From positions 62,001 to 126,000 of the forward strand of contig NZ_QJKC01000011.1 in the NCBI RefSeq assembly GCF_003202035.1: a DNA stretch of 64,000 nt, read 5' to 3'. This DNA comes from Aquitalea magnusonii (GTDB taxonomy: Bacteria; Pseudomonadota; Gammaproteobacteria; Burkholderiales; Chromobacteriaceae). How positions within the stretch are numbered: the stretch's first letter is position 1; every line of letters begins with the position of its first letter. A model generated the notes under the pieces. That model made no database searches and was not told the DNA's origin. It saw only the letters and a list, made by a program, of their open reading frames with translations. This document shows positions 6,624-10,274 of the stretch, one piece after another. The translations under genes were made by a program, and so were the position numbers.

Positions 6624-7328
6624 TTACTCGGTAATGCTCTGGTTCCAGTAAGCCTGCTTGATATAGGGCTTGGCCGCCAGCTGGCTGGCAATCCGCTCCA
6701 GCACGGCCGAATCGGCCGATGTCGACAACAGGGTGGCGGTGATTTCCACATCATCATCCCCAAACGGCTCGACATTCATGTCGCCCAGCGGGTACTGCGC
6801 CTGCTCCAGCAACTGGTCGATCAGGGTGAAGGCCAGTTTCTGCTGTTCGTCCTCGCTGATCACGCATAGCTGGTAGGTGACTTCGCTGTGCTCATCGTCC
6901 AGTGGGGTGCGGTTGATCGAGTTGACCACCGGCCGCAGCAGGGTGTTGGCGGCCAGTACGAACACGGCGTCCAGCAGTGCCGCATCCAGCAGGCCGGCTC
7001 CGGCGCAGGCACCGGCCGCCGCCGAGCCCCACAAGGTGGCGGCGGTATTCAGGCCGCGTACATTCAGCCCTTCCTTCATGATGGTGCCGGCGCCGAGAAA
7101 ACCCACGCCGGACACCACATAGGCCACCACATGGGTGGCACCGTCATTACCACCCAGCCGCACGGCCAGATCAACAAAAGCGGCAGCGCCCACGGCAACC
7201 AGCGCATTGGTGCGCAGGCCGGCGGTACGCTGGCGCACCTGGCGCTCGTAGCCGATGGCCGAGCCGAGCAGGAAAGCCGTCACCAGGGCGATGAAGGAGT
7301 GGGTAAAAACAGCAAAATCGAAGTGCAT
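6624..7328 (-). CDS. mgtC: MgtC/SapB family inner-membrane protein
   Basis: 234 residues. The N-terminal 150 residues form the MgtC membrane domain: LLGSAIGYERQVRQRTAGLRT, then GVGFLGAGTIMKEG and GLNTAATLWGSAAAG. The C-terminal 85 residues form a soluble ACT-like domain. MgtC proteins promote growth in low Mg2+ and modulate F-type ATP synthase in Salmonella; they are not themselves proven Mg2+ importers. AGGAGGGCTGC gives a strong ribosome-binding site. The gene is 118 bp downstream of an NRAMP-family gene on the same strand, so both may share the Mg2+-responsive leader proposed at 9088-10113. Confidence 0.9.
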   Translation of the reverse strand: MHFDFAVFTHSFIALVTAFLLGSAIGYERQVRQRTAGLRTNALVAVGAAAFVDLAVRLGGNDGATHVVAYVVSGVGFLGAGTIMKEGLNVRGLNTAATLWGSAAAGACAGAGLLDAALLDAVFVLAANTLLRPVVNSINRTPLDDEHSEVTYQLCVISEDEQQKLAFTLIDQLLEQAQYPLGDMNVEPFGDDDVEITATLLSTSADSAVLERIASQLAAKPYIKQAYWNQSITE

Positions 7329-7446: not shown

Positions 7447-9087
7447 TTACAGCATGGAGGCGACGACCTTGTAGATCACCATGCCCATGGCCGCCAGCAG
7501 ATAGCCGCGCAGTACGGCCATCCACAGCTTGTTGCGCTGTGACAGCACCAGCGGGGGCAGCTGGTCCAGTGCCGGCATGCGCCAGGTATGCAGGTGATGC
7601 AGATCGACTTTGCGCGCCTTGTGCTGCGGAACCTCGCCCTTTTCCATTTCTTCGCGGGCATGCAGCACGTTCACCACGATGGCAATGATCATGCCGATCA
7701 CGCTGCCGCCAATCAGGATATTGCTGATGGTTTCGCCTGACATGTCGGGGAAGACCACCGCCGCAGTCAGGATGATGGACAGCAGCACCAGTACCGCCAC
7801 GATGATGGCCGACAGCACATTGAAGAAGCGGCCGTTCACCCACGGGCCCAGTACATCCTTGTCATTGCACAGCAATAGCAGGAAGACGGTGGCGCTGGGC
7901 AACAGCACCCCAGCCAGGGTTTGCACGGCATTGGTCAGCAGGCCCAGCGGCACGCCCGGAATCAGCACCAGTGCCGCCGCCAGCACGATCAGCCCGCAAT
8001 ACATGGCATAGAAGCCCTTGGCGTCACCCGGCTTGCGGTGCAGCGAGTGTTTCAGGCTCAGTACATCGCCCAGCGCATAAGCGGTGGACAGCGATACCGC
8101 CATGGCACCGATGATGCTGGCGTCAATCAGGGCGACGGCGAACAGCGTGCCGGGCAGGCGACCGTAGTATTTGGCCAGACCGCTGGCCACCGCACCGGCA
8201 TCCTGGAAGTTGCCGAACTCCGGATGACCCATGAACACCATGGCGGTGAAGGCAATCATCGCCACGGCGCCAATCACCACCAGTGCAATGCCCAGCCACA
8301 GGTCGGCACGCTCATAGGAGATGAAGCGCGGGGTGATGCGCTTGTCGATCAGATAGCTTTGCTGGAAGAACAGCTGCCACGGTGCCACGGTGGTACCGAC
8401 AATGGCAATAATCAGTAGCATCACGTCGGCCAGCTTGCCGCCTGCAGGCATTTGCGGTACCAGGAAATCATGCGCCACCTGGGTCATCGGCGGGTGCACC
8501 ATCACCAGGATGGGTACCAGCAGCAGGCTGCCGGCCACCAGAATCAGCGAAAAGCGCTCGAAGCGGCGGAAGTCGCCGGTACTGGCCGACAGCATGATGA
8601 ATACCGCAGCCAGGCCCACGCCGACGATTTTGGGTACGCCCAGAAAATCCATGCCCAGGCTGATGCCGATGAATTCGGTGACGATGGTCAGCGCATTGAG
8701 CAGGAACAGGTCGATGGCGCTGAAAGCACCCCAGAACCTGCCAAAGCGTTCGAGGATCAGCCGGGCATGGCCCACGCCGGTGACGGCACCCAGGCGCAGC
8801 ACCATTTCCTGATTCACGTACAGCACCGGGATCAGCAGCGCCAGCGTCCACAGCAAGCTGGTACCGTAGTTCTGGCCGGCCTGGGCATAGGTGCTGAAGG
8901 CACCGGCATCGTTGTCCCCCACCATCACGATGAGGCCGGGGCCGAGAATGGCCAGCAGGGTCTTGAATTTGGCCATCCAGCCATGGCGGGCCTCGGTGTC
9001 ATTGTGACGGATGGTGCCCAGTGCGCCGCGGATGTCACCGATGTGGGCGCTATCCAGTACGGCGGTGCGGTTATCCTGTTTGGACAT
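7447..9087 (-). CDS. NRAMP-family transporter, probable NRAMP-related Mg2+ transporter (NRMT type)
   Basis: 546 residues, longer than MntH (about 410), with around 11 membrane segments and a hydrophilic N-terminus of 40 residues. The fold is NRAMP (AILGPGLIVMVGDNDAGAF; QAGQNYGTSLLW). In the metal site, canonical DPGN in helix 1 is D60-A-G-A63, and canonical MPH in helix 6 is A235-P-W. The Asn and Met that select transition metals are thus both Ala, the pattern of NRMT magnesium transporters. ATG 9087 is chosen for its AGGGAG site. It lies upstream of mgtC on the same strand, and an elaborate leader precedes it. Mg2+ as substrate is inferred, not shown; Mn2+ remains an alternative. Confidence 0.85.
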   Translation of the reverse strand: MSKQDNRTAVLDSAHIGDIRGALGTIRHNDTEARHGWMAKFKTLLAILGPGLIVMVGDNDAGAFSTYAQAGQNYGTSLLWTLALLIPVLYVNQEMVLRLGAVTGVGHARLILERFGRFWGAFSAIDLFLLNALTIVTEFIGISLGMDFLGVPKIVGVGLAAVFIMLSASTGDFRRFERFSLILVAGSLLLVPILVMVHPPMTQVAHDFLVPQMPAGGKLADVMLLIIAIVGTTVAPWQLFFQQSYLIDKRITPRFISYERADLWLGIALVVIGAVAMIAFTAMVFMGHPEFGNFQDAGAVASGLAKYYGRLPGTLFAVALIDASIIGAMAVSLSTAYALGDVLSLKHSLHRKPGDAKGFYAMYCGLIVLAAALVLIPGVPLGLLTNAVQTLAGVLLPSATVFLLLLCNDKDVLGPWVNGRFFNVLSAIIVAVLVLLSIILTAAVVFPDMSGETISNILIGGSVIGMIIAIVVNVLHAREEMEKGEVPQHKARKVDLHHLHTWRMPALDQLPPLVLSQRNKLWMAVLRGYLLAAMGMVIYKVVASML

Positions 9088-9100
9088 GCAATACTCCCTG

Positions 9101-9118
9101 ACTATGCTTTTTGCAAGC
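9101..9118 (-). other. Hairpin near the ribosome-binding site of the NRAMP-family gene
   Basis: ATGCTT / AAGCAT arms around a TTTTGC-type loop, ending about 15 nt before the start codon. It could influence access of ribosomes. Weak evidence. Confidence 0.3.
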
Positions 9119-9250
9119 ATTTGGCAGCAGAAGCCGGCAGTTCTGGGTGCATGGATGTGTTTTCTTGTGCGCGGACAAGAGAAGATATCTAGGCATCCTG
9201 AAACAGGTCAGTCGCTGCAAGATCAATGAATGTGGCCGGGAAGGCCGGCG

Positions 9251-9303
9251 TGCGGGGAGGTCGCACTGAAGGAAGGGAGGCGGACAGGAGGAAGAGGAGC
9301 GCT
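9251..9303 (-). promoter_or_regulatory. C/U-rich, G-poor tract; candidate Rho-utilisation (rut) region
   Basis: On the transcribed minus strand this stretch is nearly all pyrimidine from 9300 down to 9268, with many YC dinucleotides (CTCCTCTTCCTCC, then CCTCCCTTCC), then CCTCCCC. It starts 3 nt after the stop of the leader ORF at 9306-9377 and ends before a GCCGG / CCGGC hairpin. Rho prefers such unstructured C-rich RNA. Rho-dependent control is inferred from composition and position only. Confidence 0.5.
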
Positions 9304-9305
9304 GT

Positions 9306-9377
9306 CTAGTGAGTCCTCATCCGGCCTGGCGGCGCCTTGCCGCTCAGTACGACCGCGCTACTGGGGTAGGGGTCCAT
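9306..9377 (-). CDS. Putative 23-aa leader peptide (mgtL-like) upstream of the NRAMP-family gene
   Basis: ATG at 9377 with AAAGGATAAAT upstream; stop TAG at 9308-9306. The peptide begins Met-Asp-Pro-Tyr-Pro-Ser-Ser and has two more prolines together near its C-terminus (KAPPGR). 19 of 23 codons end in G or C, as in real genes here. The Asp/Pro-rich start resembles MgtL of Salmonella (begins MEPDPTP), whose translation is aborted at low Mg2+ and so switches mgtA on. A C/U-rich tract follows immediately, and the Mg2+-transporter-like gene starts 218 bp downstream. Function is an inference; no homology search was possible. Confidence 0.5.
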   Translation of the reverse strand: MDPYPSSAVVLSGKAPPGRMRTH

Positions 9378-9410
9378 ATTTATCCTTTCTGTGCCGCAAA
9401 CAGGGCAGTT

Positions 9411-9554
9411 TCAGTGAAAAAACTTCAGTTTCAGTGCCTGCAGCTTGCCGGCGAGGCAGGCCCACAGGCTTTCGTCTTCCTGGTACAACTTGAAGTTGTC
9501 CGGCAGGGTGATTTCGCGCTTCTGGCTGGAGGAAAGCAGCATGGCGTAATGCAT
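9411..9554 (-). CDS. Small protein of 47 aa, unknown function
   Basis: ATG at 9554 with AGGAG at ideal spacing (7 nt), stop TGA at 9413-9411, ending 33 bp before the putative leader peptide on the same strand. 38 of 47 codons end in G or C, the genome's coding signature, which a random frame would not be expected to show. The peptide starts MHYAMLLSSSQKREITLPDN, is soluble and mildly basic at its end, and has no membrane segment or signal peptide. I do not recognise it. Position suggests a role with, or cotranscription with, the Mg2+-transport genes. Confidence 0.55.
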   Translation of the reverse strand: MHYAMLLSSSQKREITLPDNFKLYQEDESLWACLAGKLQALKLKFFH

Positions 9555-9600
9555 GATCAGACTCCTGGAATGTTCCGGGTCCTGCCTGATCGCGCTCGTC

Positions 9601-9678
9601 TCAGGCTATGGCGGCATTTCCCGGGGAGAAAAATGGCGTAAGGGTAGGGCAATCACATCGACAACTGTCTGATGGCAT
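9601..9678 (-). CDS. Possible 25-aa cysteine-rich peptide
   Basis: ATG at 9678 is preceded by AAAGGAGCCGCC, a strong ribosome-binding site; stop TGA at 9603-9601. The peptide holds three cysteines within five residues (CRCDC) and four prolines. Only 11 of 25 codons end in G or C, unlike genes here, so it may be a translated leader rather than a conserved protein, or chance. Confidence 0.3.
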   Translation of the reverse strand: MPSDSCRCDCPTLTPFFSPGNAAIA

Positions 9679-10083
9679 GGCGGCTCCTTTCTGTCGCGTG
9701 GACATCGCGGTGCAGGTTTTGCTGTCTGGGTTGCGGCCAGTCAGCGCGGCGGCCTGTCCTGGCTGCTGGAGGCGTCGACAGCCATGGCTGCGCGATGGCA
9801 GGGCTAGCCGAATCACCCGGTGCAGCGGCAAGGAGCCGCGCAACACCGCAATGAGGGCTGGGCCATGACCATTGACCTGCTTGTCGGGCAAACAGGGCAG
9901 GGCACAACACGGGCTGCTGGTTTTTTAGGGGGTGTGCTGCAAGAAATCTGGAAGCGCACCGGCCTGCTTATTCGGCAGGACGGCGGCGAAGGAATACGAC
10001 GCGTGTCTTACCGAGTAAACTGAAAACGTTGTTGACGACTCTGGCAGTCCAAGGCAGTAAACCTGAAAAATAAGATAGGGCGG
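9679..10083. other. Part of the long leader with no supported gene
   Basis: About 400 bp between the strong leftward promoter and the first short ORF. Weak open frames exist on both strands, but none combines good codon use with a ribosome-binding site. I see no match to the M-box or yybP-ykoY riboswitch cores. It may be an untranslated leader or hold a small RNA. Confidence 0.4.
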
Positions 10084-10113
10084 ATTCTATTCCCATGCTT
10101 TTTGCCATGTCAA
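10084..10113 (-). promoter_or_regulatory. Strong sigma-70 promoter facing the NRAMP-family gene
   Basis: Minus strand TTGACA (10113-10108), 18-bp spacer, TAGAAT (10089-10084). The start would be near 10076, about 990 nt from the NRAMP-family ATG, so the transcript would cover all the short ORFs. The A/T-rich flanks are atypical for this GC-rich region. Confidence 0.6.
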
Positions 10114-10274
10114 CGCTGCTTTTATGTTTTTTTGCGCTTTTGACAAAATGGCGCCGCGCAGGTCGGACGGAAGCGCGCCTGATGCCCCTGTGCTATTGAA
10201 AACGGGCTTTCAGCGCGCGCCATTATCGGTAAAATCGCGCTTTTACCCACCACCCGTAGCAAGAGGGAAGCAGC

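Follow-up and report, generated by a model that had tools for sequence, protein, structure and literature searches.

A candidate leader-peptide attenuator upstream of an NRMT-like transporter gene and mgtC in Aquitalea and related bacteria

Results

A short leader ORF and a C-rich tract precede an NRAMP gene and mgtC

We analyzed a stretch of 64,000 nucleotides from Aquitalea magnusonii (hereafter the window), whose minus strand carries, in this order, a 23-codon ORF, a C/U-rich tract, an NRMT-like gene of the NRAMP family and mgtC. An earlier note on this DNA had described the ORF, its ribosome-binding site, the C/U-rich tract and the 218-nt spacing to the NRAMP gene, and both its coordinates and its description proved correct. 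The ORF belongs to what we call element B. Upstream of it, a sigma-70-like promoter probably marks the start of a leader transcript of ~1 kb, which would carry three further short ORFs ahead of that of element B; neither these ORFs nor the long-range helix described below figure in the note. The features of the locus are as follows.

10113..10084, minus: sigma-70-like promoter, TTGACA-18-TAGAAT, 11 of 12 consensus matches; probable start of the leader transcript
10074..9947, minus: element A, a TTG-start leader ORF at 10052..10008 (MDCQSRQQRFQFTR, then stop) and a hairpin, CCGTCCTGC...GCAGGCCGGTGCGC; matched by model R2 at E 7e-22, the window copy being a member of that model
9678..9601, minus: short ORF X, MPSDSCRCDCPTLTPFFSPGNAAIA, then stop; similar starts seen by eye in Burkholderia/Paraburkholderia loci
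9554..9411, minus: short ORF Y, MHYAMLLSSSQKREITLPDNFKLYQEDESLWACLAGKLQALKLKFFH, then stop; similar ORFs stand ahead of NRAMP genes of Burkholderia and Paraburkholderia
9383..9388, minus: Shine-Dalgarno sequence AAAGGA of the element B leader ORF, five nt upstream of its ATG, read from the sequence
9377..9306, minus: leader ORF of element B, MDPYPSSAVVLSGKAPPGRMRTH, then stop; 23 codons, ATG start, acidic-Pro N-terminus in 17/17 aligned copies
9345..9354, minus: 5' arm of a long-range helix, GGTCGTACTG, within leader codons 8-11 (RNAalifold and pair counts over copies)
9259..9303, minus: C/U-rich, G-poor tract, a candidate Rho-loading (rut) site from its base composition, Rho binding being putative
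9259..9268, minus: 3' arm of the long-range helix, CAGTGCGACC (RNAalifold and pair counts over copies)
9200..9152, minus: a further stem-loop, CAGGAYGCYTRGATWTCT...ACATC, lying past element B and ahead of the NRAMP start; conserved in Aquitalea and a Paludibacterium
9087..7447, minus: NRAMP-family transporter gene, NRMT-like, its ATG 218 nt after the leader stop
7328..6624, minus: gene for an MgtC family protein (mgtC), downstream of the NRAMP gene

No intrinsic terminator-like site was found in 8950-10270 of the window. A search of the window against Rfam 15 at the gathering score gave no match to any curated Mg-sensing leader RNA, including the M-box, and a search of nine related loci at E values up to 5 likewise gave no Mg-sensing leader RNA or M-box. 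On these searches, a known riboswitch or Rfam element was rejected as the identity of the leader.

Element B recurs in front of the same gene

The leader was traced by reading upstream regions and then with a covariance model, R1. It was found in Aquitalea and Paludibacterium, in one more genus of the family and in two Pseudomonas, P. gingeri and P. batumici; in the latter two, both of which are in the covariance model, it again precedes the NRAMP gene. This recurrence across genera argues that the leader is not a product of chance. Strong R1 matches (E 4e-12 or better) were obtained in 16 of the 61 family genomes, 15 of them directly 5' of an NRAMP gene and the sixteenth before its remnant: in that genome of the same genus (G001; locus L146, C6:111000-117000), element B and mgtC are kept and a 200-aa NRAMP remnant, recognized by eye, lies between them. 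Since most of the matched sequences either belong to the model or closely resemble its members, the R1 scores do not count as independent evidence, and the placement does.

Before any other gene, element B was found in none of the 61 family genomes, under stricter filters that may miss weak copies, and the Chromobacterium genomes searched gave no match. Three weak R1 matches in family genomes had E values of 0.002-0.0075. Two of them, at L147 and L148, lie opposite long coding frames and were rejected, with no leader seen there, and seven weak matches (E 4e-4 to 9e-3) obtained from 369 class genomes were presumed to be chance hits.

The acidic-Pro start of the leader peptide is conserved

Within the window, 116 ATG ORFs of 8-60 aa on both strands are preceded by a Shine-Dalgarno sequence, and a single one has [DE]P at residues 2-5, namely this leader. 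All 17 aligned copies carry an acidic residue followed by proline within residues 2-5, the N-termini being MDPYP, MDPSP, MDPWP, MDPSS, MEPSP, MDEDP and MEEP. Across these copies, the motif uses GAC for aspartate, GAA for glutamate and CCC, CCT or CCA for proline; that the codons vary while the acidic-Pro motif stays indicates that the peptide itself is kept. In two copies, an additional acidic codon is inserted without a change of frame. Proline accounts for four of the 23 codons of the window leader, and PPG or PPD stands near the end of the leader in 11 of 17 copies, being missing from L005, L006, L007, L009, L011 and L013. An 18th copy, that of G001, encodes MDPYPSLAV.

Two observations count against reading this leader as an attenuator. 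The codon-position signal is weakly coding-like, with differences of 0.35, 0.30 and 0.38 at positions 1, 2 and 3; the overlap with RNA pairing described below may be one reason. The motif of the window leader also holds one acidic residue, compared with two in the EPDP of MgtL.

A covarying helix links the ORF to the C-rich tract

Leader codons 8-12 are complementary to a segment 26-58 nt past the stop, with 8-10 of 10 bp in all 17 copies; several Paludibacterium copies have GGTCACGCTG as the 5' arm and CAGCGTGACC as the 3' arm. Run on 15 of the 17 copies, RNAalifold returned this long-range helix as its sole structure. From alignment A1 the near copies L006 and L010 had been dropped, and from A2 L005, L010 and L063. 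In the 15 copies, 145 of 150 helix cells were paired (96.7%), compared with 28.7-46.7% when the partner was slid by 1-3 columns, and five of the ten helix pairs showed compensatory double changes. The covariation score of the helix exceeded that of all 500 shuffles; against this, 16 of the 500 also reach five pairs with double changes. The helix forms in a single-sequence fold of 9235-9400. For the longer stretch 9087-9400 it is present in the centroid and absent from the minimum-energy fold, which counts against it, and the G001 copy makes six of ten helix pairs despite its MDPYP start, which counts against an attenuator. A hairpin inside the ORF (CGGTC-ACGCT-GACCG) was considered as a conserved structure and rejected, as it showed no covariation and 77% of its cells paired.

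The C-rich tract sits in the loop of the long-range helix. On the minus strand, 9251-9303 contains 27 C and 8 G, and a C-minus-G excess as large occurs in 63 of 127,894 overlapping 53-nt segments on both strands of the 64 kb, those over the tract itself included. Of the 17 copies, 16 have a tract with a C/G ratio of 1.9 or more; in L013 the ratio is 1.2 and the tract is not C-rich. When the ORF was masked as ribosome-covered, modelled tract accessibility rose in 17/17 copies, with a gain of 0.31 observed against 0.21 in shuffled sequences (10 of 17 copies), so that the gain mostly reflects composition; since shuffles give two thirds of the effect, we treat this modelling as weak support. The earlier note had named conservation in relatives as its own test, and both the acidic-Pro start (17/17) and the C-rich tract (16/17) proved to be conserved.

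The transporter resembles NRAMP-related magnesium transporters

Homologues of the transporter occur in 25 of the 61 family genomes (E 1e-60), and among the matches listed its closest named relative is the homologue of Aquitalea sp. LB_tupeE, at 97% identity. The best PDB match is 7qia (E 1.2e-51), which we take to be EleNRMT, an NRAMP-family transporter of Mg2+; MntH entries come next at E 8e-17. The NRMT signature combines TxxA/T in TM6, in place of A/CxxM, with DxxG in TM1 (PMC8806188). The TM6 signature is present here (GTTVAPWQ vs GTTIAPWM of 7qia, PW included) and the TM1 signature is absent (NDAGA vs NDAGG of 7qia), and because TM1 reads DxxA we call the protein NRMT-like and not NRMT. 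The related NrmT of Acidobacterium, which has no M-box, moved Mn and not Mg (PMC4072509), and for this reason we infer the substrate rather than take it as given. Judged from its sequence, the gene product is probably a magnesium transporter. The earlier note's designation of the gene as a Mg2+-transporter gene is supported by these Mg-type features; the binding-site signature comes near that published for NRMTs, with TxxA and PW in TM6, and departs from it in TM1, where DxxA replaces DxxG.

Leaders with an acidic-Pro start are enriched upstream of the NRAMP clade

We followed the transporter clade through at least 80 named loci. Short upstream ORFs that carry [DE]P within residues 2-5, a pattern chosen after some of the counted loci had been inspected, were found at 22 of 91 non-redundant NRAMP loci, compared with a mean of 0.52 and a maximum of 3 in 100 shuffle runs and with 1 of 93 ORFs on the reverse strand. 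This count leaves out L042 and L043, which are fragments of a single gene, as well as L093, L097 and L104, which have <400 nt upstream. Counted by ORF, 16 of the 92 that lie upstream show the pattern (at 15 of 76 named loci; L091, L093, L097 and L104 left out) vs 9 of 932 same-locus control ORFs (p 5e-12), the controls being drawn from the window and the remainder of 76 of the 80 named loci. Because shuffled regions hold fewer qualifying ORFs (38 vs 101), the comparisons with the reverse strand and within the same loci are the fairer. The simple start-codon rule put the gene start too early at some loci, including L012, L014 and L015, and the 560-nt upstream segment is shifted there.

No [DE]P leader is seen at 61 of the 76 named loci, which counts against the attenuator reading. 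Some of the [DE]P leaders are unlike element B: MDPDPSW in Roseateles, MPDPEPC in Paraburkholderia, MSDPDPS in Trinickia, MPDPDGS in Andreprevotia and MDPAPI in Ramlibacter. The DPDP and DPEP of these leaders resemble the EPDP of MgtL (PMC11282234).

Element A precedes magnesium-related and other genes

The ORF of element A starts ~30 nt past the sigma-70-like promoter and is followed by a hairpin with GGTGCGC; a promoter-like sequence also stands before element A in relatives (by eye). Its model R2 comprises 18 copies, that of the window among them. With it, matches were obtained in 45 of 300 genomes from the order and in 30 of the 61 family genomes (E 1e-3), as well as in 1 of 228 other class genomes (E 1e-4), and element A had no Rfam match in the window or in nine related loci. 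Of the 80 named loci followed, 35 have element A ahead of the NRAMP gene and on its coding strand (E 2e-4 or better; a few of these copies are in the model). At L094, L103, L105, L107, L115 and L116, a second, divergent copy lies at 1742-1973 minus, ~250-325 nt from the first and facing the opposite way.

Twenty regions with further copies of element A were taken, and 18 proteins from 14 of them were scanned (L208, L210, L211, L214, L219 and L221 lay outside the scan). Mg- or NRAMP-type genes were found at seven of the 14 loci, where element A precedes MgtC (L206, L220 and the second gene of L222), MgtE (L222, a weaker match at E 4e-7), cation P-type ATPases that we read as MgtA-like (L216, L218) and Nramp (L209 and the second gene of L224, in which a porin gene precedes Nramp). 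The other seven carry OprB porins (L207, L212, L213, L217), ABC parts (L205; L223, E 2e-5) or a peroxidase (L215); porin genes are present at five scanned loci in all, and one L205 protein was assigned no family by the scan. That element A also precedes MgtE, MgtC and MgtA-like genes argues for a Mg2+ signal, and the porin, ABC and peroxidase genes at half of the scanned loci leave room for another or a wider signal. Element A may be a general Mg2+ leader of betaproteobacteria.

In L205 and L223, which come from different families, an ABC ATPase with AAA_assoc_C follows element A and is a candidate Mg2+-linked ABC transporter.

Weak matches of the element B model (E 0.01-0.5) land on element A copies at L054, L062, L069, L072, L084 and L106, and the L054 and L062 peptides begin MEPGPS; on these grounds the two elements may be related. 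Starts like that of ORF X were seen by eye in Burkholderia/Paraburkholderia loci (MNDSDSC, MPDSDSY, MPDPEPC). ORF Y has about 45-50 codons and starts M[HN][YF][GA][ML]L, with look-alikes MNFGLLLSNLP... in Burkholderia/Paraburkholderia; it is highly variable beyond the first residues, and the window copy had no Pfam or NCBIfam match.

Discussion

MgtL is the well-known case in which the ribosome senses Mg2+ through its own nascent peptide and, to our knowledge, it is known from enteric bacteria only. There, full translation of the leader keeps a Rho-dependent terminator accessible (PMC11282234). That element B acts on the NRMT-like/mgtC operon as a leader-peptide attenuator is, in our view, an even call; Mg2+ sensing by the element is likely, and its dependence on Rho is plausible. 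When Mg2+ is ample, ribosomes would clear the acidic-Pro codons at the N-terminus, go on to translate codons 8-23 and thereby keep the 5' arm open; with the helix open, the C-rich tract would be single-stranded, Rho could load and transcription would stop before the transporter gene. At low Mg2+, ribosomes would be destabilized or slowed at MDPxP and drop off before codon 8, upon which the 5' arm would pair with the 3' arm, the tract would be folded away and the transporter would be transcribed.

The same leader-peptide switch could instead respond to proline supply, EF-P or translation capacity, with Mg2+ acting indirectly. The four proline codons among 23 and the PPG or PPD near the end of 11 of 17 copies would suit such a signal, as would two published precedents, namely the sensing of ATP and charged tRNA-Pro by Salmonella mgtM/mgtP (PMC8092293) and the C-terminal RAPP arrest motif that acts in Bordetella CruR (PMC9426467). 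However, PPG/PPD is missing in six of 17 copies, four of them from Aquitalea, whereas the acidic residue, which proline sensing would presumably not need, is present in 17/17, and we consider this signal unlikely. We find it just as improbable that the element is chiefly an RNA switch or a translation-coupling device that works without Rho, the helix governing RNA stability or another terminator and translation of the ORF just opening the helix. The helix is the best-supported feature of the element, and the roles of the tract and of Rho are inferred; yet 8950-10270 contains no intrinsic terminator-like site, and the tract is C-rich in 16 of 17 copies.

Least probable, and in our view very unlikely, is that the element responds to Mn2+ or to a different divalent metal, with the NRAMP gene encoding a Mn/Fe importer. 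The Mn transport by an NrmT without M-box (PMC4072509), the DxxA that departs from the DxxG of NRMTs, and the one peroxidase gene and five porin genes behind element A would fit a metal other than magnesium. Set against them are TxxA-PW in TM6, as in NRMTs and not A/CxxM, the presence of mgtC within the operon, and the MgtE and MgtC genes that element A precedes.

Read as a Mg2+-responsive attenuator, element B can be placed beside several published systems. Like MgtL/mgtA of Escherichia coli and Salmonella, it has a short ORF with an N-terminal acidic-Pro motif before a Mg2+ transporter gene, putative here, and alternative mRNA conformations, which for element B are predicted from a covarying helix with one arm inside the ORF. 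In contrast to the P-type ATPase of that system, the genes here are an NRAMP-type transporter and mgtC; the ~1 kb leader of element B holds further short ORFs, and by the Rfam searches the element falls outside the curated Mg-leader families. The mgtM/mgtP leader of Salmonella mgtCBR is alike, by description, in its several short ORFs and its mgtC-containing transcript (PMC8092293). Salmonella mgtQ is alike in that its acidic residues are described as hindering its own translation, whereas it lies between mgtC and mgtB and acts on mgtB translation (PMC8092293). The CruR uORF of Bordetella is likewise a betaproteobacterial, metal-responsive uORF with a C>G bubble, PP near its end and Rho, whose part is putative here (PMC9426467). 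CruR differs in being a DUF2946 protein with CXXC that senses copper, and the release of the stalled ribosome by copper shuts its operon off (PMC9426467); the 23-residue element B peptide of the window lacks Cys and carries APPG, in place of RAPP, near its end. M-boxes before NrmT genes, mostly in Clostridia and Deltaproteobacteria, share with element B the Mg2+ control by a 5' leader, putative here, and the NRAMP-related gene (PMC4072509). The M-box is a metal-binding riboswitch, in contrast, and neither the window nor nine related loci gave a match to it.

The mgtL-like leader architecture that the earlier note had proposed before a different transporter family and mgtC is supported: ORF, tract, NRAMP gene and mgtC were all found, together with a helix that the note does not mention. 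That note had left open that this logic was kept from an mgtL ancestor, a view that finds no support, as no Rfam family matched; for the same reason an origin independent of mgtL seems the more likely, a missing match being no proof. Most likely, element B acts like MgtL, with no sign of homology. A leader peptide before an NRAMP gene was not described in the titles and abstract starts of open PMC papers among the matches listed, a set that mostly leaves out subscription journals, and this agrees with the earlier note, whose author knew of no description.

More broadly, we tentatively propose an undescribed betaproteobacterial Mg2+ regulon, to which we give slightly less than an even chance. 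Acidic-start leader ORFs (A, MDSCSSR/MEPGPS; X, MPDSDS/MPDPEP; B, MDPYP/MDEDP), single or in tandem, would stand before unrelated transporters (NRMT-like, MgtE, MgtA-like ATPase, mgtC, ABC, porin) and turn the instability of ribosomes at low Mg2+ into antitermination, with an origin independent of enteric mgtL. A further leader that shares the peptide logic of MgtL, together with a covarying helix of its own and another transporter family, would mean that the instability of ribosomes at acidic-Pro starts has served repeatedly as a Mg2+ sensor. The leaders also provide a set of peptides for testing the acidic-Pro rule, and they predict a Mg2+ regulon across a large group of bacteria.
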